A stretch of 64,000 nt of DNA from Gryllotalpicola ginsengisoli DSM 22003 (GTDB lineage: Bacteria; Actinomycetota; Actinomycetes; Actinomycetales; Microbacteriaceae): the NCBI RefSeq assembly GCF_000419445.1, contig NZ_AULK01000007.1:1-64000 (forward strand). Direction: 5' to 3'. A program made the position numbers and the translations under genes. Below, one piece after another: positions 20,471-36,556 of this stretch (position 1 is its first letter; the number at the start of each line of letters is the position of its first letter). The notes beneath the pieces were generated by a model. That model saw only the letters and a program-made list of their open reading frames with translations. It ran no database searches and was not told the origin of the DNA.

Positions 20471-21442
20471 TCACACTGGCGGCGCCGCCGTCCGGTCCTG
20501 CGCGAGCAGCCGGTCGGCGGCGCCGATCACGTCTGCGGCCGTGACCGCGAGCAGGGCCGGGTCGGCGTCGGCGGCGAAGATGTCGCCGCGGCGCAGGCTC
20601 GCGTCGGTGAGCACCACGTGCGGGCCGGGCGGCGGCCCCCACTCCTCGGGCGGTGCGGGGCCGAAGATCACCACCGACGGGGTGCCGAACGCCGACGCCA
20701 GGTGCGCGACGCCGGTGTCGACGCTGACCAGCAGCCGCGCCCCGGCGATGAGCGCGGCCACGTGGTCGAGCGGCAGGCTCGCCTCCCCGGCGAACACCCG
20801 CGCGCGGACGCCGGCCTGCCGCGCGACCTCCCGCGCCCGGTCGCCGTCGGCGGGCCCGCCCGTGACGACGACCGGCAGGCCGCGCCGGGCCAGCTCGCGC
20901 AGCACGGCGGCGAAGCGCTCCTCGGGCCAGTGCCGGGCGGCGTAGAACGCGCCGACGTGCACCACGGCCGCGCCGGGCATGGGCGACGGATGCTCCGGCC
21001 GCATGATCCCCACGTCGTCGGCGTCCGCGGGCGCATCGGGGAAGGTCGCCACGCGCGCCCAGCGCTCCCGCTCGAGCCCGCCGTCGCGCCACTCGGGGCC
21101 GAGCCATCCGGGGGCGGCGTGCCCGAGCCGCAGCCGGGGCGAGAGCCGCTCCAGCACGCCCGTGCTCTCGGGGCCGCGCCCGTGCAGGTTGACCGCGACG
21201 TCGACCGGTCCGCCCGCCCAGGGCAGGGGCTCGTCGAGGCCCGGCGTCGGCAGCAGCTCGTCGATCGCGGGGGAGTCGTCGCCGACCAGCCTCACGATCG
21301 GTTCCAGCCAGCCGGGGGCGGCGTAGACCAGGCGGTGACCGGGGAATCGCCGGCGCAGCGCCTTCAGCGCAGGCACCGCGACGAGCAGGTCGCCGAGCTT
21401 CAGCGCGCGCAGGGCGAGCAGGGTCGGACGGTCGTCGCTCAT
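20471..21442 (-). CDS. Glycosyltransferase family 9 (heptosyltransferase-like), copy 1
   Basis: A 323-residue GT-B protein of family GT9, the family of ADP-heptose:LPS heptosyltransferases. Visible: N-terminal ALRALKLGDLLVAVPALKAL, the central VVHVGAFYAARHWPEERFAA and the donor-site region LLVSVDTGVAHLASAFGTP. It would transfer a heptose (or another sugar) to a glycan acceptor at the membrane. Start ATG 21442. It is divergent from the GmhB gene across a 60-base gap containing inverted repeats, so the two transcripts may be co-regulated. The acceptor is unknown; actinobacteria have no LPS. Confidence 0.83.
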   Translation of the reverse strand: MSDDRPTLLALRALKLGDLLVAVPALKALRRRFPGHRLVYAAPGWLEPIVRLVGDDSPAIDELLPTPGLDEPLPWAGGPVDVAVNLHGRGPESTGVLERLSPRLRLGHAAPGWLGPEWRDGGLERERWARVATFPDAPADADDVGIMRPEHPSPMPGAAVVHVGAFYAARHWPEERFAAVLRELARRGLPVVVTGGPADGDRAREVARQAGVRARVFAGEASLPLDHVAALIAGARLLVSVDTGVAHLASAFGTPSVVIFGPAPPEEWGPPPGPHVVLTDASLRRGDIFAADADPALLAVTAADVIGAADRLLAQDRTAAPPV

Positions 21443-21455
21443 GGCGGAGGGGTAC

Positions 21456-21500
21456 CCGAAGCAGCGGTTTGAGAAGCAGTGGCTTCGGGAACTGCTTCGG
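21456..21500. promoter_or_regulatory. Inverted repeats in divergent heptose-cluster promoter
   Basis: 9-bp perfect arms CCGAAGCAG (21456-21464) and CTGCTTCGG (21492-21500), with an inner GAAG-CAGTGG-CTTC repeat between, fill the gap between divergent GT9 and GmhB genes. This is a candidate operator or a stem-loop in both leaders. Confidence 0.45.
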
Positions 21501-21502
21501 CT

Positions 21503-22108
21503 ATGACCGAACCCGAGCTGCAGGCCGTGCTGTTCGACCGCGACGGCACGCTGGTCGTCGACGTGCCGTTCAACGACGACCCGCAGCGCGTCGTGCCCAT
21601 GCCGACCGCGGCCGCCGCGGTCGCCCGGGCGCGTGCGGCCGGGCTGCGGGTCGGCGTGGCCACCAACCAGCCGGGCATCGCCACCGGAGAGCTGCCCGCG
21701 CCGGCGCTGCGCCGCGTCAACGCCCGCATCGACGAGCTGCTGGGGCCGTTCGACGTCTGGCAGATCTGCACCCACGCCAAGAACGCGGGGTGCGGATGCC
21801 GCAAGCCCGAGCCCGGGCTCATCACCGCCGCCGCGCGCGAGTGGGGGCTGCGCCCCGAGCAGCTCGCGCTGATCGGCGACACCGCGGCGGACATGGGCGC
21901 GGCGGCCGCCGCCGGGGCGCGGGGCATCCTCGTGCCGAACGCCGCGACCCGCATCGAGGAGGTGCGCCGGTACGAGACCGCCGCCACCCTGGACGAGGCG
22001 GTGCGCCGCCTGCTCGCCGAGCGCGAATCCGGAGCAGAGCGCGAAGCCGGCGCCGGGCGCCGGGCCGGGGCGGAGGCGGAGCCCGAGACCGCGGGAGCCG
22101 CCCGGTGA
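21503..22108 (+). CDS. gmhB: HAD-IIIA phosphatase, GmhB-like (heptose bisphosphate phosphatase)
   Basis: A 201-residue HAD-superfamily phosphatase. The nucleophile motif is DRDGT near residue 14, and the zinc-binding insert CTHAKNAGCGCRKPEPG (C-x-H with C-x-C) is the signature of GmhB, which removes the 7-phosphate from glycero-manno-heptose 1,7-bisphosphate. Motif IV is IGDTAADMGAAAAAG. The last 30 residues are a low-complexity Arg/Glu/Ala tail. ATG 21503 fits the family N-terminus; a GTG at 21479 is an alternative. It starts the plus-strand heptose operon, with the GT9 start overlapping its stop (GTGA). Confidence 0.85.
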   Translation: MTEPELQAVLFDRDGTLVVDVPFNDDPQRVVPMPTAAAAVARARAAGLRVGVATNQPGIATGELPAPALRRVNARIDELLGPFDVWQICTHAKNAGCGCRKPEPGLITAAAREWGLRPEQLALIGDTAADMGAAAAAGARGILVPNAATRIEEVRRYETAATLDEAVRRLLAERESGAEREAGAGRRAGAEAEPETAGAAR

Positions 22109-23148
22109 CCCGGGTGCTGATCGCCCGGCAGGACTCCGCCGGCGACGTGCTGCTCACCGGGCCCGCCGTGCGCGCCGTGGCCGCCAGCGGGGCCGAGGTG
22201 TGGTTCCTCGCCGGCCCGCGCGGCGCCGACGCGGCGCGCCTGCTGCCCGGCGTCTCCCGCGTGCTGGTCGCCGAGGTGCCCTGGGTGGGCGACGACGCGA
22301 GCTTCTCCTCCGAGCAGGTGACGGCGCTCGCCCGCCGGCTGCGCCGCAGCTCGATCGACGAGGCGATCATCCTCACCTCGTTCCACCAGTCGCCGCTGCC
22401 GCTGGCGCTCACGCTGCGGCTGGCCGGCGTGCGGCCGATCACCGGGGCATCCGTCGACGCCGCCGGCGACCTGCTCGACCGCCGGTTGATCCCCGGGGAG
22501 GACTTCGACGAGGACCAGCCGGAGCCCCTGCGCGACCTGCGCATCGTCTCGGCCGCCGGCTACCAGCCGCCCGACGACGACGACCTGCTGCTGGCCGTGC
22601 GCCGGCTGCCGCCGGTCGAGGAATGGCTCGGCGACGACGAGGGCTTCGTCGCGGTGCATCCGGGCGCGGCCGTGCCCGCCCGCGCGTGGCCGGCCGAGCA
22701 CCACGAGGAGACGGTACGGATGCTCGCCGAGCGGGGCCACCGCGTCGTCGTGACCGGCGGGCCGGGGGAGCGTGAGCTGACCGCTCGCGTCGCAGGCTCC
22801 CACGCGCTCGACCTCGGCGGGAAGCTCGCCTTCGACGAGCTCGGCGCCGTGCTCGCCCGCGCTGCGGTGACCGTCGTGGGCAACACCGGCCCCGCGCACC
22901 TCTCCGCCGCCGTCGGCACACCCGTGGTCAGCCTGTTCTCGCCCGTCGTGCCGTCGATCCGCTGGCGGCCGTACGGCGTGCCGATCGTGCTGCTCGGCGA
23001 CCAGCAGGCCGCCTGCCGGCTGAGCCGGGCGCGTGAGTGCCCGATCCCCGGGCATCCGTGCCTCGCCTCGGTCTCGCCCGAGCGGGTCGTCGCCGCGGTG
23101 GAGGAGCTGCTGCCGGCCCCGAGCCCCGTCGCGGGAGGCCGCCGATGA
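22105..23148 (+). CDS. Glycosyltransferase family 9, copy 2
   Basis: A 347-residue GT9 protein: IARQDSAGDVLLTGPAVRAV at the N-terminus, FVAVHPGAAVPARAWPAEH in the second Rossmann domain, and VVGNTGPAHLSAAVGTPVV at the donor site. The C-terminal CPIPGHPCLASVSPE segment has the Cys-rich loop seen in GT9 enzymes. GTG 22105 overlaps the GmhB stop. Predicted to transfer a heptose unit to a surface glycan or lipid acceptor inside the cell before export. Second of three GT9 genes in the cluster. Confidence 0.84.
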   Translation: MTRVLIARQDSAGDVLLTGPAVRAVAASGAEVWFLAGPRGADAARLLPGVSRVLVAEVPWVGDDASFSSEQVTALARRLRRSSIDEAIILTSFHQSPLPLALTLRLAGVRPITGASVDAAGDLLDRRLIPGEDFDEDQPEPLRDLRIVSAAGYQPPDDDDLLLAVRRLPPVEEWLGDDEGFVAVHPGAAVPARAWPAEHHEETVRMLAERGHRVVVTGGPGERELTARVAGSHALDLGGKLAFDELGAVLARAAVTVVGNTGPAHLSAAVGTPVVSLFSPVVPSIRWRPYGVPIVLLGDQQAACRLSRARECPIPGHPCLASVSPERVVAAVEELLPAPSPVAGGRR

Positions 23149-24140
23149 GGATCCTGATCTGGCACATGCACGGCGGCTGGACGGATGCGTTCGTGCGCGG
23201 CGGCCACGAGTACCTGCTGCCGCACACCCCGGCCGGCGGCCCGTGGGGCCTCGGCCGCGCCGGCCGCGACTGGCCGGGCACCGTGAAAGAGGTCGCGCCC
23301 GCCGAGCTCGCCGGCGCCGACGTCGACGTGGTCGTGCTGCAGCGCACCGAGGAGCTCGCGCTGGCGGAGCAGCTGCTCGGCGCCAAGCCGGGCGTGGACG
23401 TGCCCGCCGTGTTCGTCGAGCACAACACCCCGCGGGTGCAGTTGCCGGAGTCGCGGCATCCGCTCGCCGACCAGGACCGCATCGCGATCGTGCACGTGAC
23501 CCCGTTCAACGCGCTGATGTGGGACAACGGCGACGCGCCCGTGCGGGTCGTCGAGCACGGGCTGCCCGACCCCGGCTACCGGTACACGGGCGAGTTGCCC
23601 CGGCTCGCGATGAGCGCGAACGAGGCGGTGCGGCGCCGCCGCGTGCTCGGCACCGACCTGCTGCCGCAGATCTCCCGCGGCGCGCCGATCGACGTGTTCG
23701 GCATCGGCGCCGACGAGGTGCCTCAGGCGCTCGGCGCCGGTGCCCGGGTCGCCTCCGGCGGCGACCTGCCCACGGCGCAGCTGCACGCCGAACTCGCCCG
23801 GCGCCGCGCCTACCTGCACACGGCCAGGTGGACCTCGCTCGGCCTCTCCCTCATCGAGGCGATGCTGCTCGGCATGCCCGTGCTCGCCCTCGCCACCACC
23901 CAGGTGCCGGCGTCGCTGCCGCCCGAGGTGGGCGAGCTCGCCCTCGACCCCGACCGCCTCGCCCGGGCGGCGGCACGCTACGCCGCCGACCCCGAGCGGG
24001 CCCGTGAGCACGGGCTGCGCGCCCGTGACGCCGCGCTGGAGCGCTTCGCGCTGCCGCGCTTCCTGGCCGACTGGGACGACGTGCTCGAGGAGGCCGTCGC
24101 CCGCGTCCGCCGCTCCCACCTGCTGAGGAGGACCGCATGA
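23145..24140 (+). CDS. GT4-like glycosyltransferase
   Basis: A 331-residue glycosyltransferase with a GT-B layout. It begins MRILIWHMHGGWTDAFVRGG, has VFVEHNTPRVQ in the middle and a C-terminal SLGLSLIEAMLLGMPVLAL segment corresponding to the ExxxxxE donor-binding motif of GT4. Weakly like the glycosyltransferases that sit beside heptose genes in other actinobacteria (from memory). ATG 23145 overlaps the previous stop by four bases and its own stop overlaps the next start, so this is a tightly coupled operon. Donor and acceptor cannot be inferred. Confidence 0.72.
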   Translation: MRILIWHMHGGWTDAFVRGGHEYLLPHTPAGGPWGLGRAGRDWPGTVKEVAPAELAGADVDVVVLQRTEELALAEQLLGAKPGVDVPAVFVEHNTPRVQLPESRHPLADQDRIAIVHVTPFNALMWDNGDAPVRVVEHGLPDPGYRYTGELPRLAMSANEAVRRRRVLGTDLLPQISRGAPIDVFGIGADEVPQALGAGARVASGGDLPTAQLHAELARRRAYLHTARWTSLGLSLIEAMLLGMPVLALATTQVPASLPPEVGELALDPDRLARAAARYAADPERAREHGLRARDAALERFALPRFLADWDDVLEEAVARVRRSHLLRRTA

Positions 24141-25417
24141 GGATCGCCATGATCTCGGAGCACGCCAGCCCGCTCGCCGCCGTCGGCGGTGCAGACGCGG
24201 GCGGGCAGAACGTGCACGTCGCCCAACTGGCGATCGAGCTCGCCCGCCGCGGCGAGGAGGTGACCGTCTACACCCGGCGCACCGCCGCCGACCAGCCCGC
24301 CCGGGTGCCGCTCGAGGGCGCCGAGGTCGTGCACGTCGATGCGGGCCCCGCCGAGCCGGTGCCGCGCGACGAGCTGCTGCCCTTCATGTCCGAGCTCGCC
24401 GCCGGCGTCGCCGACGACTGGCGCAGCCGCGGCGCCCCCGACCTCGTGCACGCGCACTTCTGGATGTCCGGGCTCGCGGCGCTCGACGCATCCGCCGCCC
24501 ACCTCGGACGCACGGGCGAGCGCGTGCCCGTCGTGCAGACCTTCCACGCGCTCGGCACCGTCAAGCGCCGCCACCAGGGCGCCGCCGACACCAGCCCCGC
24601 CGAGCGCGAGAGCCTCGAGCCGCGGGTGGGCCGCGACGCCGACGCGATCATCGCCACCTGCGAGGACGAGGTCGACGAGCTCGAGGCGATGGGCATCGCG
24701 CGCGAGAAGACCTCGGTGGTGCCCTGCGGCGTCGACACGACCCGGTTCACGCTCGACGGGCCGCGCGTGCGCATGACGGATGCCTCGGTCATCGCCGTCA
24801 TCGGACGGCTGGTGCCGCGCAAGGGCGCCGACCTCGTCATCCAGGCCCTCGCCCGCCTCGGCTCGGTGGGCGGACGCGCGCCCGAGCTGCTCATCGTCGG
24901 CGGGCCCGGCGGCGGCGACCCGTCGATCTACTCGGATCCCGAGATCGCCCGGCTGGCGCAGGTGGCCCGCGACGCGGGCGTCGGCGACCGGGTGCGCTTC
25001 ACCGGGCAGATCCCGCAGCGGGCGCTGCCCTCGGTCATCCGCGGCGTCGACGCGGTCGTGTGCACGCCCTGGTACGAGCCGTTCGGCATCGTGCCGCTCG
25101 AGGCGATGGCCTGTGGCGTGCCCGTCGTGGCCGCAGCGGTCGGCGGACTGCGCGACACCGTGGTCGACGGCGTGACCGGCATGCACGTGCCGCCGCGCGA
25201 CCCCGAGGCCCTCGCCGCCGCGCTCGCCGAGCTGCTTCCCGACCAGCTGCGCCGCGCCCGGATGGGCGCCGCCGGCCGCCGCCGCGTCGAGCAGGGCTAC
25301 ACCTGGCCGTCGGTCGCGCAGGCGACCGCCGAGGTGTACCGCGCGCTGACCGGGGCGGTACCGGGCGCCGCCGAGCCGGCCGCCCTGGCCCGCGCCGCCG
25401 GGGGGTGGCCGCGATGA
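24137..25417 (+). CDS. Glycosyltransferase family 4 (MshA/sucrose-phosphate-synthase-like)
   Basis: A 426-residue GT4 enzyme. The N-terminal glycine-rich loop reads GGADAGGQNVHVAQLA; LVHAHFWMSG follows; the donor-site motif is EPFGIVPLEAMACGVPVV near residue 315. The overall order resembles MshA and sucrose-phosphate synthase-like retaining transferases that use UDP- or NDP-sugars. Here it most likely adds a sugar to the same glycan as the GT9 proteins; a mycothiol role is unlikely given the heptose context. Start ATG overlaps the previous gene, stop overlaps the GmhA-like start. Confidence 0.83.
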   Translation: MRIAMISEHASPLAAVGGADAGGQNVHVAQLAIELARRGEEVTVYTRRTAADQPARVPLEGAEVVHVDAGPAEPVPRDELLPFMSELAAGVADDWRSRGAPDLVHAHFWMSGLAALDASAAHLGRTGERVPVVQTFHALGTVKRRHQGAADTSPAERESLEPRVGRDADAIIATCEDEVDELEAMGIAREKTSVVPCGVDTTRFTLDGPRVRMTDASVIAVIGRLVPRKGADLVIQALARLGSVGGRAPELLIVGGPGGGDPSIYSDPEIARLAQVARDAGVGDRVRFTGQIPQRALPSVIRGVDAVVCTPWYEPFGIVPLEAMACGVPVVAAAVGGLRDTVVDGVTGMHVPPRDPEALAAALAELLPDQLRRARMGAAGRRRVEQGYTWPSVAQATAEVYRALTGAVPGAAEPAALARAAGGWPR

Positions 25418-26094
25418 CGCTGCAGCTCACCCCCGACCTGCGCGCCGACACCCGCCGCGCCGTCGCCGACCACCTCTCGGGACTCGCGGCGCTCGCCGCC
25501 GAGCTCGAGCGGCACCAGGACCGCATCGCCGCCTGGGCCGACGAGCTGGCCGCCCGGCTCGACGACCGGCGCCGGCTGCTCGTGGCCGGCAACGGCGGCT
25601 CGGCCGCCGAGGCCCAGCACCTCGCCGCCGAACTGGTCGGCCGCTTCGCCGCCGAGCGACGCGCGTTCTCGGCCATCGCGCTGACCGCCGAGACCTCGTC
25701 GCTGACCGCGCTCGGCAACGACTACGGCTACGAGCGGGTCTTCGCCCGCCAGGTCGAGGCGCACGCCCGGCCCGGCGACGTGCTGCTGCTGCTCTCCACG
25801 AGCGGCCGCAGCCCCAACCTGCTGCTCGCCGCAGACGCCGCCCGGTCGATCGGCGTGACCACCTGGGCGCTCACCGGTACGGGACCCACCCCGCTCGCCC
25901 AGGCGTGCGACGACGCCATCGAGCTGTCCAACCCGGCGCCGCACGCGCAGGAGGGCCACCTGATCGCCATCCACGCGCTGTGCTGCGCCTTCGACGCGGC
26001 GATCGCCCGCGCCGACGCGGCCTGCGCCGAGCTCGCCCGCGCCGACCTGGCCCGCGCACGGCGCACCCGCCCCGACGAGCGGAGGCCGCGATGA
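25414..26094 (+). CDS. gmhA: Sedoheptulose-7-phosphate isomerase, GmhA-like (SIS domain)
   Basis: A 226-residue SIS-domain protein. GmhA converts sedoheptulose 7-phosphate to glycero-manno-heptose 7-phosphate, the first step of heptose activation. Diagnostic blocks: AGNGGSAAEAQHLAAELVGR, SSLTALGNDYGYERVFARQ, the phosphate loop LLSTSGRSPN and QEGHLIAIHALCC with the catalytic Gln-Glu-Gly-His. The C-terminus is an extra Arg/Ala-rich helix. ATG 25414 overlaps the GT4 stop. Together with GmhB and the kinase/nucleotidyltransferase fusion it gives a full set for an activated D,D-heptose. Confidence 0.88.
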   Translation: MTLQLTPDLRADTRRAVADHLSGLAALAAELERHQDRIAAWADELAARLDDRRRLLVAGNGGSAAEAQHLAAELVGRFAAERRAFSAIALTAETSSLTALGNDYGYERVFARQVEAHARPGDVLLLLSTSGRSPNLLLAADAARSIGVTTWALTGTGPTPLAQACDDAIELSNPAPHAQEGHLIAIHALCCAFDAAIARADAACAELARADLARARRTRPDERRPR

Positions 26095-26957
26095 GGATCA
26101 CCGTCGTCGGCGACCTGCTGCTCGACGTCGACCTGTGGGGCCCCACCCAGCGCACGGCCCCCGACGGCGGCATGCCCATCGTCGACATCAGCCGCGAGAG
26201 CGTGCGCGCCGGCGGCGCCGGCCTCGTCGCGACCCTGCTGCGGCAGGACGGCCACGACGTGCGCCTCGTCGCCGCCATCGGAGTCGACGAGGCGGCCGCC
26301 CGGCTGCGCGGCCTGCTCGAGGGCGTCGAGCTGCACCTCGGCGCGAGCAACGCGCCCACCCCCGTGAAGACCCGGCTGCAGGCCGGAGAGGGCACGATCG
26401 CCCGCTTCGACGTGGGCTGCGCGCCCGCACCGGCGCCCGAGGTGACCGACGAGATGCGCGCGGCGGTGGGTGAGGCGGACGCGGTCGTCGTCGCCGATTA
26501 CGGGCGGGGCATGACAGCGGATGCGGGCATCCGATCGAGCCTCGCCGCCGTCGCGGCGCACGTGCCCGTCGTGTGGGACCCACACCCGCGCGGCTCCCGC
26601 CCGATCGCCGGCGTCGTCGCCACTCCCAACCGCAGCGAGGCCGCGGGCTTCGCCGCGACCGAAGACATGGAGGCCGCCGCCGCGCGGCTGCGCGCCGAGT
26701 GGTGCGCCGTCGCCGTCGCCGTCACCCTCGGCGCCGAGGGGGTGCTGCTGCACGCCGACCGCGTGGAGCGCCGGCCCGCCCGCGTGGTGAACGTGGTCGA
26801 CGGCTGCGGCTCGGGCGACCGCTTCGCCTCCGCCGTCGCGGCGGCGCTCGCCGCGGGCGCCGGCCTGGGCGAGGCGATCGACCACGCCGTGCACCGCACC
26901 GCCGACTTCCTCGAGGCCGGCGGCGTGGCCGCGCTCGCCGGGCTCGGCGTGCGCTGA
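26091..26957 (+). CDS. PfkB-family sugar kinase, RfaE/HldE N-terminal-domain-like
   Basis: A 288-residue ribokinase-fold protein beginning ITVVGDLLLDVDLWG, the style of RfaE/HldE heptose kinases. The anion-hole/base motif reads GCGSGDRF with base D243, where GAGD is usual. The first glycine motif is AGGAGLVATLL instead of GGAANVA. It resembles the kinase domain of the fusion gene at 30453 but is shorter and lacks a nucleotidyltransferase, so the cluster has two RfaE-type kinases; one may act on another sugar or have lost activity. ATG overlaps the GmhA stop; a 90-base gap separates it from the SDR gene. Confidence 0.8.
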   Translation: MRITVVGDLLLDVDLWGPTQRTAPDGGMPIVDISRESVRAGGAGLVATLLRQDGHDVRLVAAIGVDEAAARLRGLLEGVELHLGASNAPTPVKTRLQAGEGTIARFDVGCAPAPAPEVTDEMRAAVGEADAVVVADYGRGMTADAGIRSSLAAVAAHVPVVWDPHPRGSRPIAGVVATPNRSEAAGFAATEDMEAAAARLRAEWCAVAVAVTLGAEGVLLHADRVERRPARVVNVVDGCGSGDRFASAVAAALAAGAGLGEAIDHAVHRTADFLEAGGVAALAGLGVR

Positions 26958-27046
26958 CCCGGAGCGCCGGCCCCAAGCATCCGTTCACCCGATCCGACCC
27001 GCACGACCCGACACGACACGACCGACCCGACACGAAGGAGGGCACC

Positions 27047-27787
27047 ATGACCACCATCACCACCGACGCCGACGCCCGCACCCGGCAGACCGCGCCGACC
27101 CCGGCCGAGGGGCGCGTGATCCTCACCGGCGGATCCTCCGGGCTCGGCGCGGCCGTCGTCGCCGCGCTGCGCGACCGGGGCGCGACCCCCGCAGTGCTCG
27201 ACATGGCGCCGCCGCGCGACGGCGACACCGCCTACCGCGAGGTCGACGTCACCGACAGCGCCGCCGTCGCCGAGGCGGTCGCGCAGCTGCGCGACGAGCT
27301 GGGCGGCATCGACGCGGTCGTCACGGCCGCCGGCATCGACCGGCCCGGCAAGCTCGACGACATCCCGGCGGATGCGTGGGAGAAGGTGATCGGCGTGAAC
27401 CTGATCGGCGTCGCCGCCACCGTGCGCGCCGCGCTGCCGGCGCTCAAGGAGAGCCACGGCCGCATCGTCACCGTCGCCTCGACGCTTGCGCTCAAGGGCG
27501 TGAGCGACGCGACCGCCTACTGCGCCTCGAAGTTCGGCGTGCTCGGCTTCAGCCGGGCGCTCGCCGCGGAACTCGCCGGCGAGGTGGGGGTCACCACGCT
27601 GATCCCCGGCGGCATGCGCACGCACTTCTTCGACGGCCGCGACGCGAAGTACGCGCCGGGCGACGACGCGAAGCTCAACGACCCCGCCAACACCGCGAAC
27701 GCGGTCGTCTTCGCCCTCTCGCAGCCCCGCGGCTGCGAGGTGCGCGAGCTGCTGATCGCGCACGAGGAGGAGCCTTCCTGGCCGTAG
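27047..27787 (+). CDS. Classical short-chain dehydrogenase/reductase
   Basis: A 246-residue SDR. The cofactor loop is TGGSSGLG and the catalytic residues are the Ser of VASTLAL and YCASK. Asp-Met after the second strand (VLDMA) suggests NAD(H) preference. An N-terminal extension rich in Thr/Ala precedes the domain. The gene has its own GAAGGAGG site and lies 90 bases after the kinase in the heptose operon. It is too short for the extended SDR HldD epimerase; it could oxidise or reduce a sugar intermediate. A long imperfect inverted repeat follows its stop. Confidence 0.82.
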   Translation: MTTITTDADARTRQTAPTPAEGRVILTGGSSGLGAAVVAALRDRGATPAVLDMAPPRDGDTAYREVDVTDSAAVAEAVAQLRDELGGIDAVVTAAGIDRPGKLDDIPADAWEKVIGVNLIGVAATVRAALPALKESHGRIVTVASTLALKGVSDATAYCASKFGVLGFSRALAAELAGEVGVTTLIPGGMRTHFFDGRDAKYAPGDDAKLNDPANTANAVVFALSQPRGCEVRELLIAHEEEPSWP

Positions 27788-27813
27788 GCGCGTGCAGGGT
27801 CGGCCGGGGGCGG

Positions 27814-27882
27814 GCCGAATTCAGGAGGAGCTCACCTTGGAGGCGCAATAGCCCTCGAATCCCACGAGCTCCTGAGTTCGGC
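27814..27882. terminator. Long imperfect inverted repeat between convergent genes
   Basis: Left arm 27814-27833 and right arm 27866-27882 pair as GCCGAA-TTCAGGAG.. with ..CTCCTGA-GTTCGGC, GAGCTC at the inner ends, loop about 32 bases. It separates the SDR from the convergent third GT9 gene and may act as terminator for both. Confidence 0.5.
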
Positions 27883-27905
27883 CGCGGGTCGGCGTCGGCC
27901 GGCCC

Positions 27906-28985
27906 CTAGTTGACGGGTGCGGCAGCCGCGTGCCCCAGCAACTCCCGCGCATCCGCGAGCACGTCGTCGACCTCGACCTCGGCCACGAACGACACGTCGT
28001 GCTCGCAGCGCGGGCTGGTCCAGCCGACGTGGCTCTGGTCGCGGCCGCACACCGGGCACGTCGTCTGCCACGACACGTGCAGGCGGTGCTCGGCCCGGCT
28101 GAGCGGCCCCGCGTTGATCACGTTGCCGCACCAGTACACCGACACGGTCGGCGTGCCGAGGGCGTGTGCCAGGTGGCGCGGCCCGCTGTCGTTGCCGACG
28201 AGCAGGGGGGCGGCGTCGAGCACGCCGCACAGGGCCGAGAGGTCGAGCTCGCCGGCCAGCGAGCGCACGCGATCGGATGCCGCGGCCCGCACCACCTCGT
28301 CGGCGAGCCCCCGCTCGCTCGCATCCCCGACCACGACCACCTCGGCCCCCTGCTCCGCGAGGGCCCGCGCGACGGCACCGAACTTCTCGGCGGGCCAGCG
28401 GCGCCGCGCATCCGTCGCCCCCGGATGCACCGCGACCGTGACCGGGCCCGCGACCGACGAAGAGGCGGCAGCGCGATCCCCAGCCGTCGCCGCGAGCTCG
28501 GGCTCGAGCACGACCGGCGCGGCTCCGGCGAGGCCGGCCACCTCGAGTCCACGCAGCATCTCGTGCTGGTAGTACTCGTAGGGCACGGTGCGCTCGAGCC
28601 GGGCGGCGTCGGGCGTGGCCGTGCCGACGGTGTGCCGGGCGCCGAGGCGGAGCAGGAAGGGGTTCGAGTTGCGGCCGCCGCCGTGCAGCTGCACCGCGAG
28701 GTCCGGCGGCATGGCCTGCCAGCGGGCGAAGAACTCCTCCGCGGGCTCCGGCCCCTCGCCGTCGTACACCCCGGGCGTGTGCGGCAGCCGCTCGAGCCGC
28801 ACCGGGAACGGCAGTCGGTCGGCCAGCACGTCTCCGGACGGCCCGGACAGCACCGTGATCTCGGCCTCGGGGTAGGCGGCGTGCAGGGCGAACAGCGCCG
28901 GCACGGCGAACAGCACGTCGCCGAGGCCGCCGCCGCGCAGCACGGCGATGCGGCGGACGTCGGGGAAGGCGGGGAGGATCCTCAT
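27906..28985 (-). CDS. Glycosyltransferase family 9, copy 3
   Basis: A 359-residue GT9 protein starting MRILPAFPDVRRIAVLRGGG with the GGLGDVLFAVPALFAL motif. The central VAVHPGATDARRRWPAEKF and LLVGNDSGPRHLAHALGTP are the acceptor/donor cleft motifs. Its C-terminal part carries a Cys/His cluster (CPVCGRDQSHVGW, then CEHDVSFV), suggesting a metal site not obvious in the other two copies. It is on the minus strand, divergent from the aldehyde dehydrogenase. Role as for the other GT9 enzymes: transfer of a heptose to a glycan. Confidence 0.83.
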   Translation of the reverse strand: MRILPAFPDVRRIAVLRGGGLGDVLFAVPALFALHAAYPEAEITVLSGPSGDVLADRLPFPVRLERLPHTPGVYDGEGPEPAEEFFARWQAMPPDLAVQLHGGGRNSNPFLLRLGARHTVGTATPDAARLERTVPYEYYQHEMLRGLEVAGLAGAAPVVLEPELAATAGDRAAASSSVAGPVTVAVHPGATDARRRWPAEKFGAVARALAEQGAEVVVVGDASERGLADEVVRAAASDRVRSLAGELDLSALCGVLDAAPLLVGNDSGPRHLAHALGTPTVSVYWCGNVINAGPLSRAEHRLHVSWQTTCPVCGRDQSHVGWTSPRCEHDVSFVAEVEVDDVLADARELLGHAAAAPVN

Positions 28986-29041
28986 GAGAAGTTGATCCCC
29001 GAGCGGCGTGACTTCTATGCCGCTTGGGTACCCGCACCCCC

Positions 29042-30451
29042 ATGGTGACTCTGACCCTGCCCGACACCGAGGCCCGCGACAACGAGACCATCACGATCCT
29101 CGACCCGCGCGACGGCAGCACCGTCGGCACCCTGCCGGTGAGCACCCGCGCCGAGGCCGAGACGGCGCTGCTGGCCGCGCACAGCGCCCAGGCCGCATGG
29201 GCGCAGACCCCCGCCGCCGAGCGCGGCAGCAGGCTGCACGACGCGGCCGAGCGGCTCAGCGCGGTCGCCGACGAGCTCGCCGAACTCAACTCCCGCGAGA
29301 CCGGCCGACCCGTCGCCGATGCCCGCGCGGGCATCCAGGCGGGCATCGACACGCTGCACCAGTACGCCGAACTCGGGCCGGTGCACCGCGGCCGAAGCCT
29401 CGCCGGCGCCGACCTCGCCGCCGACTACACCCGCTACGAACCCCGCGGCCTCGCCGTCGTGCTCACCCCGTGGAACGACCCGATCGCCGTCTCCTGCGGC
29501 CTGATCGGCGCCGCCCTCGTCACCGGCAACACGGTCGTGCACAAGCCCAGCGAGCGCTGCCCCCACCTCGGCCTGCGCTTCGGTGAGGCGCTCGCCGACG
29601 CGTTCCCCGCCGACGTGTTCCGCACCGTGACCGGCGGCGCCTCGCTCGGCAGCGTGCTCGTCGGCGACCCGCTCGTCGACGTCGTCGCGCACGTCGGATC
29701 GTCCGCGTCGGGCCACGCCATCGCCCGGCTCGCCGCCCAGCACGGCGCCCACGTGGTGCGCGAGAACGGCGGCAACGACCCGCTGATCGTCGACGCGGGC
29801 GTCGACCCCAAGTGGGCGGCCCAGCAGGCGGCGCTCGGCGCATTCGCCAACACGGGCCAGATCTGCACCTCGGTGGAGCGCATCTACGTGCACCGCGAGG
29901 TGGCCAACGCGTTCCTCGCGCACCTCGTGGCCGAGGCATCCGATCTCACCGGATCGCCCGGCTTCGGCCCGCTCGTCGACGAGCGGATGCGCGCCCACGT
30001 GCACGCCCACGTCACCGACGCCGTCGCGCACGGCGCGACGCTGCTCGTCGGCGGCGAACCCGACCCGGCGCCCGGCTCGCGCTACCCGGCCACGGTGCTC
30101 ACCGACTGCACGCCCGCCATGGCGGTCATGCGCGAGGAGACCTTCGGCCCGGTAGCTCCCGTGCAGGTGGCCGACGACTTCGAGGCGGCGCTCGAGGCGG
30201 CGTGCGACGACCGCTACGGGCTCGCCGCGACCGTGCTCACGCCGTCCATCGCGCACGCGCAGCAGGCGATCGCCCGGCTCAAGGTCGGCACGGTCAAGGT
30301 CAACGAGGTGTTCGGCGGGGCGCCCGGCGGCTCGGCGCAGCCGCGCGGCGAGAGCGGCAGCGGCTTCGGCTACGGCCCCGAGCTGCTCGACGAGTTCAGC
30401 CTGGCCAAGGTCGTGCACCTCGCCTCGCCCGGCACCGCCCAGGAGGACTGA
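29042..30451 (+). CDS. Aldehyde dehydrogenase family protein
   Basis: A 469-residue NAD(P)-dependent aldehyde dehydrogenase. The general base is E241 in RENGGNDP (usual form ELGG), and the nucleophile is C275 in GQICTSVERIYV. PWNDPIAV and ETFGPVAPV are further family motifs. ATG 29042 is used; TTG 29024 is possible. It is only one base ahead of the heptose kinase fusion, so the two are co-transcribed. An aldehyde dehydrogenase is not part of the known ADP-heptose route; it may oxidise a sugar aldehyde to a uronate-type product or detoxify an intermediate. Confidence 0.85.
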   Translation: MVTLTLPDTEARDNETITILDPRDGSTVGTLPVSTRAEAETALLAAHSAQAAWAQTPAAERGSRLHDAAERLSAVADELAELNSRETGRPVADARAGIQAGIDTLHQYAELGPVHRGRSLAGADLAADYTRYEPRGLAVVLTPWNDPIAVSCGLIGAALVTGNTVVHKPSERCPHLGLRFGEALADAFPADVFRTVTGGASLGSVLVGDPLVDVVAHVGSSASGHAIARLAAQHGAHVVRENGGNDPLIVDAGVDPKWAAQQAALGAFANTGQICTSVERIYVHREVANAFLAHLVAEASDLTGSPGFGPLVDERMRAHVHAHVTDAVAHGATLLVGGEPDPAPGSRYPATVLTDCTPAMAVMREETFGPVAPVQVADDFEAALEAACDDRYGLAATVLTPSIAHAQQAIARLKVGTVKVNEVFGGAPGGSAQPRGESGSGFGYGPELLDEFSLAKVVHLASPGTAQED

Positions 30452-30452
30452 C

Positions 30453-32765
30453 ATGGTCGACATCGCCACGCTGCTGCGCCGCATCACCGAGGCCGCCCCC
30501 GAGATCGTCGTCGTCGGCGACCTGCTGCTCGACGACTGGTGGCAGGGCGGCTCGGGCCGGCTCGGCCGCGAGGCGCCGGTGCCGGTCGTCGACGCGCACG
30601 AGCACCATTTCGCGCCCGGGGGAGCGGCGAACGCGGCCGCGAACCTCGCCGCCCTCGGCGCGCGCGTGCGCGTGGTCGGGGCGGTGGGCACGGATGCCTC
30701 GGGCGACCGCCTGCTCGCCCAGCTCTCCGACCTCGGGGTGGACACCTCGGCCGTGGTCCGCTCGCCGGCCGTCACCACCCCGTGCAAGACCCGCATCGTC
30801 GCCCGCGACAGCGTCGTGGCCCGCGTCGACGAGGGCACCGGTGCCGAGGTGCCCGCCGAGGTGCGTGAGCAGCTCGTGCGCTCGGTGCGCGAGAGCATCG
30901 GCGGGGGAGCGGCGCAGCTGATCTGCGACTACGGCCTCGGCGCCGCGGCCGCCGCCCGCGACGAGCTCGCCCGCGCGCCGCGCCCGGCCCTGCGGGTGGT
31001 CGACGCGCACGAGGTCGCTGCGTGGGCCGACCTCGAGCCCGACGTGGTCACCCCGAACCGCCAGGAGGCCGCCGCGCTTCTCGGCGCCGACGCCGCGGAG
31101 CCGGGCTCGGAGTGGGTGCAGCGGAGCGCGGAGCGGCTGCTCGAGGCATCCGCCGCCCGGCTCGCCGTCGCCGTCACGCTCGACCGCGACGGCAGCGTCA
31201 CCGTGCGCCGCGACGGCGCCCCCGCGCACCGCACCCACGCCGGGCCGGCCAGCGAGCAGAACGCGTCCGGCGCCGGCGACACCTACGCGGCCGCGCTCAC
31301 CGCCGCCCTCGCCGCGGGCTGCGCCGTCGAGGACGCCGCCGAGCTCGGCCAGCTCGCCGCCGACGTCGTGGTGCGCGCCGCCGGCACCTCCCTGTGCCGC
31401 CCCGACGAACTGCTCGTCGCCGCCCGCGGCGTGTTCGACCGCGAGGTGCTCGCCGACATCGTCGCCGCGCACCAGCGGCTCGGGCACCGCGTCGTGCTCA
31501 CCAACGGGGTCTTCGACGTGCTGCACCGCGGGCACGCGGCCTCCCTCGCCGAGGCGAAGTCGCACGGCGACGTGCTCGTCGTGGCGCTGAATGCCGACGC
31601 ATCCGTGCGCCGCCTGAAAGGCCCCGAGCGGCCCATCAACGAGCAGGCCGACCGTGCGGCCGTGATCGCCGCGCTCGGCGTCGTCGATCTGGTCACGATC
31701 TTCGAGGAGGACACCCCCGCGGACCTGATCGAGCGGCTGCGGCCCGACGTGTACGTCAAGGGTGGCGACTACTCCGAGCAGATGCTCGCCGAGGCGCGCA
31801 TTGTGCGCTCGTACGGCGGCGAGGTGCACATCCTCGGCTACGTGCCTGAGCACTCGACGACCGACGTGGTGACCCGCATCCGCCGCCGGCCGCGCACCCG
31901 GCGGCCCGCCGCCCGGTGGGCGTCGGCCGAGCCGCCCGCCGCGCCGCGCCTCGACGTGCTGATCCCCACCAGCGAGCGGCCCGCCGAGCTCGCCGTGACG
32001 CTCGCGGGCCTCGCCGCGCAGGACGACCCGCCGTTCCGCGTCGTGATCGGCGACCAGAGTGAGCGGATGCCCGACTGGGAGCACCCCGCCGCGCAGGCGA
32101 TGATCCGGGTGCTGCGCGCCCAGGGCCGCGCGGTCGAGCTGCTGCGCACCCTGCCGCGTCGCGGCGTGGCGGAGCACCGGGAGCGGTTGCTGCAGCACTC
32201 GGTGCGCACCGCTCCCGAGGTCGAGGACGTGCTGTTCCTCGACGACGACGTGTGGCTCGAGCCGGGCCAGCTGGCGACCCTCGTCGCCGCCCGGCGCGAG
32301 CTTGACGCCGGCTTCGTCGGCGCCGCCGTGCAGGGGCTCAGCTACCTCGACGACGACCGGCCGCACGAGCTCGAGGCGTTCGAGCGGTGGGACGGGCCGG
32401 TGCAGCCCGAGGCCGTCGCCCCCGAGACGCCGGAGTTCGAGCGCTGGCGGCTGCACAACGCCGCGAACCTCACCCGGCTCGCCGGGCGCCTGCAGCTCGC
32501 CGACGACGAGTGGGTCGCCTACAAGGTGGCCTGGGTCGGCGGCTGCGTGCTGTACGACCGGGCGGAGCTGCTCGAGGCGGGCGGCTTCGACTTCTGGAGC
32601 GAGCTGCCGCCGGAGCACTCGGGCGAAGACGTCGTGGCGCAGTGGCGGGTGATGCGCCGCCGCGGCGGGGCCGGCATCGTGCCCTCGGGCGCCGTGCACC
32701 TGGAGTCTCCGACGACGGTCGTCGACCGCACCGTCGACGCGAAGGACCGCATCGCGGTCCAGTAG
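30453..32765 (+). CDS. Three-domain fusion: heptose kinase, nucleotidyltransferase and GT2 glycosyltransferase
   Basis: A 770-residue protein. Residues 10-325 are an RfaE/HldE-type PfkB kinase (VVGDLLLDDWW, PGGAANAAANLAALGA, and NASGAGDTY with base D276). Residues 345-470 are a cytidylyltransferase-fold heptose 1-phosphate nucleotidyltransferase (TNGVFDVLHRGH, giving HRGH at 358-361, and VYVKGGDYS). After a Arg/Pro/Ala linker, residues 500-760 form a GT2-type glycosyltransferase (LDVLIPTSERP, LDDDV with Asp597-599, and HSGEDVVAQ with E725-D726). E. coli HldE ends after the second domain, near 477 residues. The fusion suggests that sugar phosphorylation, nucleotide activation and transfer happen on one chain. 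GT2 acceptor unknown. Confidence 0.86.
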   Translation: MVDIATLLRRITEAAPEIVVVGDLLLDDWWQGGSGRLGREAPVPVVDAHEHHFAPGGAANAAANLAALGARVRVVGAVGTDASGDRLLAQLSDLGVDTSAVVRSPAVTTPCKTRIVARDSVVARVDEGTGAEVPAEVREQLVRSVRESIGGGAAQLICDYGLGAAAAARDELARAPRPALRVVDAHEVAAWADLEPDVVTPNRQEAAALLGADAAEPGSEWVQRSAERLLEASAARLAVAVTLDRDGSVTVRRDGAPAHRTHAGPASEQNASGAGDTYAAALTAALAAGCAVEDAAELGQLAADVVVRAAGTSLCRPDELLVAARGVFDREVLADIVAAHQRLGHRVVLTNGVFDVLHRGHAASLAEAKSHGDVLVVALNADASVRRLKGPERPINEQADRAAVIAALGVVDLVTIFEEDTPADLIERLRPDVYVKGGDYSEQMLAEARIVRSYGGEVHILGYVPEHSTTDVVTRIRRRPRTRRPAARWASAEPPAAPRLDVLIPTSERPAELAVTLAGLAAQDDPPFRVVIGDQSERMPDWEHPAAQAMIRVLRAQGRAVELLRTLPRRGVAEHRERLLQHSVRTAPEVEDVLFLDDDVWLEPGQLATLVAARRELDAGFVGAAVQGLSYLDDDRPHELEAFERWDGPVQPEAVAPETPEFERWRLHNAANLTRLAGRLQLADDEWVAYKVAWVGGCVLYDRAELLEAGGFDFWSELPPEHSGEDVVAQWRVMRRRGGAGIVPSGAVHLESPTTVVDRTVDAKDRIAVQ

Positions 32766-32783
32766 GCGATCGGATGCGTGGCC

Positions 32784-32989
32784 GCTGGTCTCCATTCGCC
32801 CGCTGCGCGGCCGAGTCGACCGGCGGCCGGCCCATCCCGCCGGGCGCAAACGTCACGATCGGGCATAGCCCGCGCGCAGGACTTGCGCCCGATCGTGACG
32901 TCTACGCCCTGGCGGCCGGCCCACCTCGCCGGTCGACTCACGCGCAGCGCGCCCCGCCGGTCGACTCACGCGCAGCGTGAATGGAGACC
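32784..32989. repeat. Composite palindromic repeat element
   Basis: Outer repeats are in inverted orientation: one plus copy at 32784-32826 (GGTCTCCATTCGCCCGC.. GAGTCGACCGGCG) and two minus copies at 32927-32951 and 32955-32989. Between them sits a perfect 15-bp inverted repeat, ACGTCACGATCGGGC at 32850-32864 and its complement at 32887-32901. The element fills the gap between the fusion gene and the convergent DUF6098 gene. It looks like a REP/BIME-type structure and may also terminate transcription. Confidence 0.75.
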
Positions 32990-32993
32990 GCAG

Positions 32994-33410
32994 TCAGCTG
33001 CGCTCGAACCGCTCCGAGTACACCTCGTCGGCTTCGTCGATCACCTGCTCGGCCAGCCGCGCGAGCGGCCGCGGCCGGGCGATGAGCGGCTCGCAGTCGG
33101 GCCCGCGCCCCACCACCTCGCCGGTGAGCACCCACGCGTACCGGTCGCCGTCGCGCCGCAGGTGCGCGTACTGGCAGATCTGCCGCGCCAGCCAGTCGAG
33201 CACGGGCCTCGACCACCACGGCTCCGGGTCGAGCGGATTGGTCGACAGCCCCGGCAGCTCCAGGCCGCTCTCCTGGTCGACGCTCTGCTCGTGCGCATCC
33301 TGCTCCGGGCCCTTCGAGTAGCGCAGGAACGTCGGCTCGCTCGAGCGCTCGACGAGCTCGCGCACCTCCTCGAGCGAGGTCAACACGGGCAGAGGCGACG
33401 AGTCGGGCAT
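32994..33410 (-). CDS. DUF6098 family protein
   Basis: A 138-residue soluble protein. The blocks FLRYSKGPEQDAHEQSVDQE, LPGLSTNPLDPEPWW and WLARQICQYAHL match a family of unknown function common in actinobacteria (recalled as DUF6098). ATG 33410 is preferred over 33443 because it fits the family start PVLTSLEEV. No membrane segment. The gene is flanked on both sides by copies of the same palindromic repeat family, so it could have been carried or shuffled as a cassette. Function unknown. Confidence 0.75.
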   Translation of the reverse strand: MPDSSPLPVLTSLEEVRELVERSSEPTFLRYSKGPEQDAHEQSVDQESGLELPGLSTNPLDPEPWWSRPVLDWLARQICQYAHLRRDGDRYAWVLTGEVVGRGPDCEPLIARPRPLARLAEQVIDEADEVYSERFERS

Positions 33411-33468
33411 GGCGATGGAGTACCCGTCGCCAGGCAATGGCATCCAGGCATCCGTTTGTCACAGCGTC

Positions 33469-33566
33469 GCTGGTCTCCATTCGCCCGCTTCGCGCGCGAG
33501 TCGACCGGCGACGTCCGTCGAGTCGGCCGGCGAAGTCGCCCGCTTCGCGCGCGAGTCGACCGGCGG
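33469..33566. repeat. Two further copies of the GGTCTCCATTCGCCC repeat
   Basis: A full plus-orientation copy at 33469-33510 and a partial copy at 33538-33566 (GCCCGCTTCGCGCGCGAGTC..), upstream of the DUF6098 gene and of the monooxygenase gene. They share the GAGTCGACCGGCG end with the composite element at 32784-32989. Confidence 0.75.
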
Positions 33567-33666
33567 GTCCGGGAATATCCGCACGCCCACCGCGTTACCG
33601 ATCCATGCAAACGTATAGACTCGGGCGACCGCCCCCAGTGCGGCACGCAGCAGGAAAGGACCCACC

Positions 33667-34848
33667 GTGCAGTTCGGCATCTTCTCGGTCAGCGACATCA
33701 CGCGCGACCCCACCACCGGCGTGACGCCCAGCGAGAGCGAGCGCATCGACGCCATCGTCAAGATCGCGCAGAAGACCGAAGAGGTCGGCATGGACGTCTT
33801 CGCCATCGGCGAGCACCACAACCCGCCGTTCTTCTCCTCCTCGCCCACGACGCTGCTGGCCTACATCGCCGCCACGACCGAGCGGCTGCTGCTGACCACG
33901 TCGACCACGCTGATCACCACCAACGACCCGGTGCGCATCGCCGAGGAGTACGCGATGCTGCAGCACCTGGCCAAGGGCCGCATGGACCTGATGCTCGGCC
34001 GCGGCAACACCGGCCCCGTCTACCCGTGGTTCGGGCAGGACATCCGCCAGTCGCTGCCGCTCGCGCTCGAGAACTACAACCTGCTGCACCGCCTCTGGCG
34101 CGAGGACGTCGTCGACTGGGAGGGCCACTTCCGCACCCCGCTGCAGGGCTTCACCTCGACGCCGCGCCCGCTCGACGACGTGCCGCCGTTCGTCTGGCAC
34201 GGTTCGATCCGCACCCCCGAGATCGCCGAGCAGGCCGCCTACTACGGCGACGGATTCTTCGCCAACAACATCTTCTGGCCGAAGGAGCACTACCAGCGCC
34301 TGATCGCCTTCTACCGCCAGCGCTTCGAGCACTACGGCCACGGCTCGCAGAAGGAGGCGATCGTCGGCCTCGGCGGCCAGGCGTACATCGCCAAGAACTC
34401 GCAGGACGCCAAGCGCGAGTTCCGCCCCTACTTCAACGAGGCGCCGGTCTACGGCCACGGCCCGTCGATGGAGGACTTCACCGAGATGACGCCGCTCACC
34501 GTCGGCAGCCCGCAGGAGGTCATCGACCGCACCCTCGAGTTCCGCGAGTGGGCCGGCGACTACCAGCGCCAGTTGTTCCTGATGGACCACGCCGGCCTGC
34601 CGCTCGCGACCGTGCTGAAGCAGCTCGACCTGCTCGGCGAAGAGGTCATCCCCGTGCTGCGCAAGGAGACCGAGGCGCGCCGCGACCCCGAGACCGCCCC
34701 GGCGCCCACCCACGAGCGCCTCGTGAAGGCCAAGTACGGCGAGGCCGCCCCGCGCCAGGTGCGCCCGAACGCGAACCGCGGCGACAATGTCACCGGCACC
34801 TCCCCCTACCAGGACACCGAGCAGGAGCCCGCGTTCCCGGCGCTGTAA
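33667..34848 (+). CDS. CE1758-like FMN-dependent luciferase-like monooxygenase
   Basis: A 393-residue LLM-class flavin-dependent oxidoreductase with a TIM-barrel fold. Typical blocks are MDVFAIGEHHNPPFFSSSP, LLLTTSTTLITTNDPVRIAE and GRMDLMLGRGNT; VGSPQEVIDRTLEF lies near the C-terminus. Start is GTG 33667 with AGGAAAGGA before it. The next gene encodes an FMN reductase, which would supply reduced FMN; this pair corresponds to what is annotated as CE1758 and CE1759 in corynebacteria. The physiological substrate is not known. Confidence 0.87.
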   Translation: MQFGIFSVSDITRDPTTGVTPSESERIDAIVKIAQKTEEVGMDVFAIGEHHNPPFFSSSPTTLLAYIAATTERLLLTTSTTLITTNDPVRIAEEYAMLQHLAKGRMDLMLGRGNTGPVYPWFGQDIRQSLPLALENYNLLHRLWREDVVDWEGHFRTPLQGFTSTPRPLDDVPPFVWHGSIRTPEIAEQAAYYGDGFFANNIFWPKEHYQRLIAFYRQRFEHYGHGSQKEAIVGLGGQAYIAKNSQDAKREFRPYFNEAPVYGHGPSMEDFTEMTPLTVGSPQEVIDRTLEFREWAGDYQRQLFLMDHAGLPLATVLKQLDLLGEEVIPVLRKETEARRDPETAPAPTHERLVKAKYGEAAPRQVRPNANRGDNVTGTSPYQDTEQEPAFPAL

Positions 34849-34882
34849 GACGCCGCGAGACGCCGCAAGAGGAGAACCAGAC

Positions 34883-35602
34883 ATGACGGATGCATCGCGC
34901 GAGCCCGCCTCGCCCGACCAGGGCTCGACCTACCGCCTGGTCGTCGTCAACGCCGGCATCAGCGACCCCTCGTCGACGAAGCTGCTCGCCGACCGCGTCG
35001 CGCAGCGCGTCGGTGCGGTCGCGGGCGAGCACGGCCACCGGGTGGCGGTGACCGTGCTCGACCTGCGCGAGCTGCTGCCCGAGATGTCGCAGGCCGTGTC
35101 CTCGCAGCTGTTCGGCCCGAAGTTCACCGCCGCCATCGAGGCGCTGCGCCAGGCCGACGGCATCGTGGCGAGCGCGCCCGTGTACAAGGCCGGCCCCTCG
35201 GGCCTGTTCGACACCTTCTTCCAGGTGCTCGACAACGACCTGCTGATCGGCAAGCCGGTCGTGCTCGCCGCGACCGCCGGCACCGCCCGGCACGCCCTCG
35301 TCGTCGACGAGCAGATGCGCTCGATGTTCGCCTTCCTGCGCACCCTGGTCGTGCCCACCTCGCTCTTCGCCTCGACCGAGGACTGGCAGGACCGCTCGCT
35401 CGGCAGCCGCATCGACCGCGCCGCGCTCGAGCTGGTGCTGCTGATGGAGAGCGGCTTCGAGAAGAAGCTGCGCGGCGACGGATGGTCGAGCTATCAGCAC
35501 GAGTTCGGATCGGCCGGCGGCACCGAGCTCGGCATCGACCTCGGCAGCGACCTGATGAAGCTCGCCACCGGCGGCGCCCTGCCCCCGCGCAAGAAGGGCT
35601 GA
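34883..35602 (+). CDS. CE1759-like NAD(P)H-dependent FMN reductase
   Basis: A 239-residue flavodoxin-fold reductase (residues 16-190): YRLVVVNAGISDPSSTKLLA, the flavin loop SAPVYKAGPSGLFDTFFQ and LAATAGTARHALVVDEQMR. It should reduce FMN for the monooxygenase encoded 34 bases upstream; a GAGGAGA site precedes its ATG. The last 50 residues (GTELGIDLGSDLMKLATGG) are a C-terminal extension. The first 15 residues are probably disordered. Followed after 21 bases by a nucleoside hydrolase, perhaps in the same transcript. Confidence 0.86.
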   Translation: MTDASREPASPDQGSTYRLVVVNAGISDPSSTKLLADRVAQRVGAVAGEHGHRVAVTVLDLRELLPEMSQAVSSQLFGPKFTAAIEALRQADGIVASAPVYKAGPSGLFDTFFQVLDNDLLIGKPVVLAATAGTARHALVVDEQMRSMFAFLRTLVVPTSLFASTEDWQDRSLGSRIDRAALELVLLMESGFEKKLRGDGWSSYQHEFGSAGGTELGIDLGSDLMKLATGGALPPRKKG

Positions 35603-35623
35603 CCGCCCGGCGAGAATGGGGCG

Positions 35624-36556
35624 GTGGCCATTCCGCTCGTGATCGACACCGACACCGCCGCCGACGACTGCTTCGCCCTGCTGATCGGGCTGCTCGACCC
35701 CCGGGCGGACCTGAAGGCGGTGACGATCGTCGGCGGCAACGTCGGCTTCGACCAGCAGGTGCACAACGCGCTGCTGACCATCGGCCTGGCCGGCCGCCTC
35801 GACGAGGTGCCGGTGCACATCGGCGAGCGCGACCCGCTGCACCGCGACTGGGTGAGCGCCGAAGACGTGCACGGCGACGGAGTCGGGGGTCTGCGCCGCC
35901 CCGACGACGGCCGCGGCCCCGCCGCCGAGCACGCCGTCGAGGCGCTGGTGCGCCTCGCCCGGGAGCACGCGGGCCGGCTGCGGGTGGTGGCGATCGGCCC
36001 GCTCACGAACCTCGCCCGCGCCATCCGTCTCGACCCCGGCTTCGCCCGCAACGTGGCCGCGCTCTACGTGATGGGCGGCTCGGTGAACGGCCGCGGCAAC
36101 ATCACGCCGGCGGCGGAGTACAACATCTACGTCGACCCCGAGGCGGCGGCCGAGGTGTTCGCCGCCGGCTTCGCCGAGCTGGTCGTCGTGCCCTGGGATC
36201 CGACGACCATCCGCGACACCGTCGTCGACGCCGGACGCCTGGCGCAGATCGCCGCGCTCGACACCGAGCTGTCGCGCTTCTTCGTGCGCGCGAACCAGGC
36301 CACCTTCGACTTCGACTCGGCGGCCGGCATCGGCGGCTCCACGCACCCCGATTCCCTGACCACGCTGCTCGCGCTCGGCGAGCCGATCGTCACCGCCCAG
36401 GCCCGCTACCGGGTCGGCGTCGAGACCGCCGGCGAGCTGACGCGCGGCGCGACCGTCTTCGACTGGCGATCGGATGCCCCCAACGTCACCGCCGTCGAAG
36501 CGGTCGACGGCCCCGCCTTCTTCGCCTACCTGCTGCGCCTGCTCGCGAGCCGCTGA
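35624..36556 (+). CDS. Nucleoside hydrolase (inosine/uridine-preferring type)
   Basis: A 310-residue N-ribohydrolase of the IU-NH fold. The calcium-binding N-terminal motif is DTDTAADDCFALL (residues 8-20); GPLTNLARAI and the YNIYVDPEAAAEV region are the other active-site blocks. It cleaves purine or pyrimidine ribonucleosides to base and ribose in salvage. Start GTG 35624. It lies 21 bases after the FMN reductase on the same strand, and the transcript is expected to end at the exceptional hairpin 72 bases downstream. Confidence 0.88.
   Translation: MAIPLVIDTDTAADDCFALLIGLLDPRADLKAVTIVGGNVGFDQQVHNALLTIGLAGRLDEVPVHIGERDPLHRDWVSAEDVHGDGVGGLRRPDDGRGPAAEHAVEALVRLAREHAGRLRVVAIGPLTNLARAIRLDPGFARNVAALYVMGGSVNGRGNITPAAEYNIYVDPEAAAEVFAAGFAELVVVPWDPTTIRDTVVDAGRLAQIAALDTELSRFFVRANQATFDFDSAAGIGGSTHPDSLTTLLALGEPIVTAQARYRVGVETAGELTRGATVFDWRSDAPNVTAVEAVDGPAFFAYLLRLLASR

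Follow-up and report, generated by a model that had tools for sequence, protein, structure and literature searches.

An HldE-like kinase, a nucleotidyltransferase and a GT2 glycosyltransferase are joined on one chain in the protein encoded at positions 30453-32765 (+ strand) of the window, that is, of the whole 64,000-nucleotide stretch analysed here (bases 1-64000 of contig C7). We propose that this protein is probably a trifunctional polypeptide, which arose by in-frame fusion of an HldE-like enzyme with the GT2 encoded by the next gene, and in which the two are coupled within a pathway and not by a sealed channel. The open reading frame runs from ATG to TAG over 770 codons without an internal stop, as read from a single assembly, a 2.94-Mb draft in 23 contigs. 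The PfkB kinase with its base D276, the HRGH motif at residues 358-361 and the GT2 domain with D597-599 and E725-D726, which the original prediction had placed in one unbroken 770-residue frame, were all located by script at exactly these positions (GAGD 273-276, HRGH 358-361, DDD 597-599 and GED 724-726). Pfam assigns residues 18-317 to PfkB (PF00294, E 1.1e-30), residues 349-453 to CTP_transf_like (PF01467, E 9.5e-14) and residues 502-630 to Glycos_transf_2 (PF00535, E 2.3e-5), the last with 24.8 bits against a gathering score of 23.3. Among the NCBIfam models, rfaE_dom_II matches with 189.6 bits, above its curated cut-off of 181.5. The best match for the kinase, rfaE_dom_I, reaches 198.4 bits, below its cut-off of 345, and the best whole-length match, HldE, reaches 334.2 bits, below 521; we therefore name the N-terminal part HldE-like and not HldE. 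This part (30453..31883, +) is predicted from Pfam, NCBIfam and its invariant motifs to comprise a heptose-7-phosphate kinase and a heptose-1-phosphate adenylyltransferase. It is followed by an Arg/Ala/Pro-rich linker of 22 codons (31884..31949, +; residues 478-499) and by the GT2 part (31950..32765, +; residues 500-770). In alignments built with 30 HldE and 31 GT2 relatives out of 47 listed, the residues G273, G275, D276, H358, G360 and H361 are invariant in all 31 HldE rows and D597, D599, E725 and D726 in all 32 GT2 rows, the window being included in both counts.

The GT2 domain adopts a GT-A fold with a DxD and an acidic ED motif, as judged from its structural model, from fold matches in the PDB and from its invariant residues. 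The AlphaFold model of residues 478-770 has a pLDDT of 94.6 and a pTM of 0.93. Similar folds are those of GlfT2 (Foldseek E 4.6e-11), PcManGT (VIA Z 18.1; 2.7 Å over 195 residues) and TarS (VIA Z 17.6; 3.0 Å over 216 residues), which share 17-20% identity with the GT2 domain; none of these is named as an ADP-heptose enzyme, which says nothing about the donor. No match to the GT9 family (PF01075) was found in the fusion protein up to E 0.1. A relative of the GT2 part is found in a Burkholderia multivorans plasmid protein (WP_006409530.1; locus L134, 11062-12819), which carries this GT2 type joined to DUF4254; its GT2 part is 47% identical over residues 500-763 of the fusion, and its gene has a GT9 gene on either side. 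The N-terminal partner is thus DUF4254 in Burkholderia and an HldE-like enzyme in the window, and DUF4254 may have a role in the same glycan chemistry. Taken with the actinobacterial cluster described below, the Burkholderia locus indicates that the tie between GT2 and GT9 genes has been seen twice, independently and with different fusion partners. A search of viral contigs for the GT2 found no relative.

The fusion is the last gene of a conserved cluster of 11 genes that also holds GmhA- and GmhB-like genes and three GT9 heptosyltransferase-like genes. The cluster opens with the first of these GT9 genes (20471..21439, -; PF01075), followed by a GmhB-like HAD-IIIA phosphatase (21482..22108, +), which matches HAD-IIIA and histidinol-phosphatase domain models above their cut-offs and GmhB models below theirs (97.2 and 50.1 bits). 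Then come the second GT9 gene (22108..23148, +; PF01075), a glycosyltransferase with a Glycos_transf_1-like C-terminal part (23148..24140, +; PF13524, PF00534), a GT4-type glycosyltransferase (24140..25417, +; PF00534, PF13439) and a GmhA-like phosphoheptose isomerase of the SIS type (25417..26094, +; PF13580), for which the best NCBIfam match is phosphoheptose isomerase (157.6 bits, below the cut-off of 276). The remaining genes encode a second, kinase-only HldE, hereafter HldE2 (26094..26957, +; PF00294; rfaE_dom_I 129.2 bits, below the cut-off of 345), a classical short-chain dehydrogenase (27050..27787, +; PF00106 and synteny), the third GT9 enzyme (27906..28982, -; PF01075) and, directly upstream of the fusion, an aldehyde dehydrogenase (29045..30451, +; PF00171), which is a frequent neighbour in relatives. 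The GmhA and GmhB names are given by best match and synteny, as the equivalog cut-offs were not reached. A whole-genome search with the HldD model gave nothing over the cut-off (best 104.2 against 274.6 bits). As judged from sequence, the gene set fits the synthesis of ADP-D-glycero-D-manno-heptose together with heptosyltransferase-like genes. Among 56 relative loci, which are a chosen subset of all matches, at least eight of the 10 other cluster genes are present in 35 and at least five in 43, always in the order of the window; the other 13 show fewer than five within the stretch fetched. An Rfam scan of window positions 20000-36000 returned nothing at gathering score. On the 3' side of the fusion gene (window 32783-33567) lies a REP-like interspersed repeat with the core CGCGNGAGTCGACCGGCG, of which the window has five copies with up to two mismatches against 0.76 expected. 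The genome has 24 exact copies, several spaced 27-29 nt apart, where the reversed control has none.

In the relatives, the HldE-like enzyme and the GT2 are neighbours encoded by separate genes. Close named matches are from Arthrobacter and Subtercola. The family sample gave a match at 1e-30 in 67 of 398 genomes, that of the window included, and 46 relatives in it have HldE adjoining GT2 on one strand, in no case in one frame. Samples at the levels of order, phylum and class (347, 396 and 296 genomes, overlapping with one another and with the family sample, and covering a part of the species) contributed 16 further pairs, so that none of 62 neighbour pairs, tallied by frame, is fused. One of the 16 is in the same frame (genome G1082) and has a stop codon between the genes. 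A second fusion seemed to be present there, as an open frame of 829 residues had been listed, and was rejected upon finding a TGA and a new ATG in the DNA; an AGGAGG precedes this ATG (locus L083). A layout of this kind is one from which loss of a stop codon could give a fusion. The pair tally leaves aside most rows of paralogues (37-41% identity), including genomes G232, G256 and G314, where the paralogue is the only match, and does not count as adjacent the partial GT2 matches of G011 and G098, which are more than 400 bases away; G876 is counted among the wider-sample pairs although its HldE row is only 39% identical. The fusion shares 47-55% identity with the separate HldE proteins of the relatives and 50-65% with their GT2 proteins (31 of the latter).

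Stop and start codons overlap by 4 nt in 35 of the 45 split pairs among the 56 relative loci that were read base by base, taking the start codon nearest to the HldE stop as that of the GT2, and this arrangement, present in most of the relatives read, points to translational coupling. The two genes need not be closely coupled, as seven of the 56 loci have HldE and no adjoining GT2 in the stretch fetched, and in three more the GT2 is elsewhere or in pieces; in two class-level genomes the GT2 precedes HldE. In the base-level count, the loci outside the 45 pairs are these seven and four that have a GT2 with no adenylyltransferase within 450 nt. Across 397 related genomes, in counts that take no account of kinship, both genes occur in 51, GT2 alone in one, HldE alone in 14 and neither in 331, where genomes with a paralogue only were counted as having HldE and where two candidates were scored per genome, so that a GT2 may have been missed in some HldE genomes. 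The three-domain order predicted from the window is present there; across the sampled genomes the single chain is not conserved and its parts are neighbours in the 62 pairs. What is conserved is the link between the GT2 and the heptose genes. Since the pairs of the relatives are split, we regard the fusion as a derived joining of a conserved gene pair, seen once in the sample.

HldE2 of the window differs from its counterparts in that it lacks the adenylyltransferase domain, which follows the kinase in all 43 relative loci showing the gene, and in that its catalytic motif is GSGD where the others have GAGD. It had been considered that the HldE2 adenylyltransferases might be dead; this was rejected, as LHAGH or IHAGH is present in 43 of 44 HldE2 loci, the exception being the window, which is without the domain. 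A search of the whole genome gave one rfaE_dom_II match, that in the fusion, which would make the fusion the genome's only predicted source of this type of nucleotide-activated heptose. The mirror image is seen in genome G345 (locus L081), where HldE1 is a kinase only, HldE2 is whole and the GT2 is next door; no aldehyde dehydrogenase match was found in the stretch. A kinase-GT2 fusion, also considered for this locus, was rejected because the coordinates place the GT2 in another frame. Judging from the opposite losses in the window and in G345, either adenylyltransferase seems able to stand in for the other; the two kinases have both been kept.

The reactions, the glycan and the benefit of the fusion that we infer are as follows. 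GmhA would provide heptose 7-phosphate, which the kinase domain would convert to the 1,7-bisphosphate; GmhB would then remove the 7-phosphate, and the adenylyltransferase domain would form ADP-heptose. GmhB acts between the two steps of HldE. PMC10269868 names GmhA, HldE, GmhB and HldD as the enzymes of the pathway in Escherichia coli and Helicobacter pylori, and presents GmhB as an enzyme separate from HldE. The chain does not form a linear channel, since a separate enzyme works between the kinase and the adenylyltransferase domain: the product of the kinase would have to visit GmhB, and the activated heptose would also have to reach the GT9 enzymes. With the sole rfaE_dom_II match in the fusion and three GT9 genes in the cluster, the product presumably has to leave the fusion. 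The GT2 domain would contribute a sugar to the very surface glycan on which the GT9 enzymes place heptose, and the covalent, flexible linker would replace translational coupling, fixing a 1:1 ratio and the co-localisation of the two enzymes. In the model of the full-length protein, whose GT2 part is weak with only three GT2 rows in the alignment, residues 476-494 have a pLDDT below 50 and the pTM is 0.61, which agrees with domains connected by a flexible tether. The fusion most likely couples two enzymes that serve one glycan pathway.

An error of sequencing or assembly at the junction, with two genes in the actual organism, is an alternative account that we consider very unlikely. It would agree with the split state of all 62 tallied pairs and with the occurrence of the fusion in one assembly of 23 contigs, and 41 of 555 single-base edits tried around the junction do yield a stop and a nearby GT2 start. 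However, the similarity to HldE ends with RIR at residue 477, and the N-terminal extension of the relatives' GT2 proteins matches from about residue 482 (RR under residues 483-484 in 21 of 31 and W under residue 489 in 27 of 31), which places the joint at about residues 478-481, where no single-base edit tried gives two genes. The 41 edits are all deletions in one stretch of 41 bases that begins where this N-terminal motif ends, whereas the frame of the window already matches the motif (RR 483-484, W489) upstream of it. They would leave an overlap of about 40-46 nt and not the usual 4 nt, and none of the 555 edits restores the usual two-gene layout. In addition, no base is repeated more than three times in a row in the linker. 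The third codon position has the highest GC of the three in every 35-codon block of the reading frame; the linker of 22 codons is GC-rich at all positions, and therefore phase carries little signal there.

The fused chain may also be read in two other ways. In one, the GT2 takes as its donor the ADP-heptose that the same chain has produced, such that activator and heptosyltransferase are one protein; we hold this to be unlikely. Its appeal lies in the adjacency of GT2 and HldE in the 62 tallied pairs, in their strong co-occurrence and in the presence of this GT2 type beside GT9 genes in Burkholderia too. On the other hand, we know of no GT2 enzyme with ADP-heptose as donor. TibC and WaaC, ADP-heptose enzymes with solved structures, have a GT-B fold (PMC4358343), against the GT-A fold here. 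The titles of the closest folds in the PDB name UDP, GDP or TDP sugars, although the donor cannot be read from a fold. The sole rfaE_dom_II match of the genome lies in the fusion beside three GT9 genes, and the low-confidence linker and the pTM of 0.61, from a model with few GT2 rows, suggest no rigid tunnel. The suggestion in the original prediction that the activated sugar goes directly to the transferase is not supported as it stands, given that GmhB is separate, that the sole rfaE_dom_II match is in the fusion and that there are three GT9 genes; a fusion is by itself no proof of substrate handover inside a protein. ADP-heptose is a possible donor of the GT2, but that the GT2 type is an unrecognised GT-A ADP-heptosyltransferase, and the fusion the first chain known to combine activation with transfer of heptose, appears quite unlikely. 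In the other reading, loss of the stop codon and loss of the HldE2 domain are both drift in a decaying cluster and the fusion is a by-product without benefit. Two unusual changes in one cluster would agree with this, and the cluster seems dispensable, as three sampled genomes of the same genus have no match at 1e-30 (best 1.5e-7; two of these genomes are less than 90% complete). Yet the catalytic motifs of all three domains are intact, and of the two adenylyltransferases the genome has retained the fused one, so that this account is doubtful as well. Coupling of two enzymes of one pathway by an in-frame fusion is therefore the reading that we prefer.

The fusion resembles HldE/RfaE in the order of kinase and adenylyltransferase and in the GAGD and HxGH motifs, and differs from it in the additional C-terminal GT2 and in a genome with no HldD match over the cut-off. 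PMC10269868 presents HldE of H. pylori as a bidomain enzyme that acts with GmhA and GmhB. WaaC, of family GT9, and TibC, a BAHT, transfer heptose from ADP-heptose and have a GT-B fold (PMC4358343), in contrast to the GT-A fold of the fusion's GT2. In the clusters of the relatives, gene order is the same where seen, with two proteins in place of one and with a second HldE that keeps its adenylyltransferase. A passage of a Rhodococcus paper cites a GDP-heptose enzyme gene, and a passage of a Frankia paper lists an ADP-heptose:LPS heptosyltransferase. Consistent with the original prediction, which knew of no described enzyme with this domain order, a literature search, with most subscription papers outside its coverage, found none, and found no description of this actinobacterial cluster or its glycan either. 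The parts are of known kinds and their combination is new.

Heptose activation has been studied mainly for the lipopolysaccharide of Gram-negative bacteria; in this case its genes form part of a cluster that is conserved in Gram-positive actinobacteria. As a Rosetta-stone link, the fusion places a GT2 type that had been an orphan in a heptose pathway on which little work has been done. It is useful and testable, yet not a new kind of system, and it offers a single protein on which donor use and coupling could be tested, with the naturally split versions of the relatives as controls.
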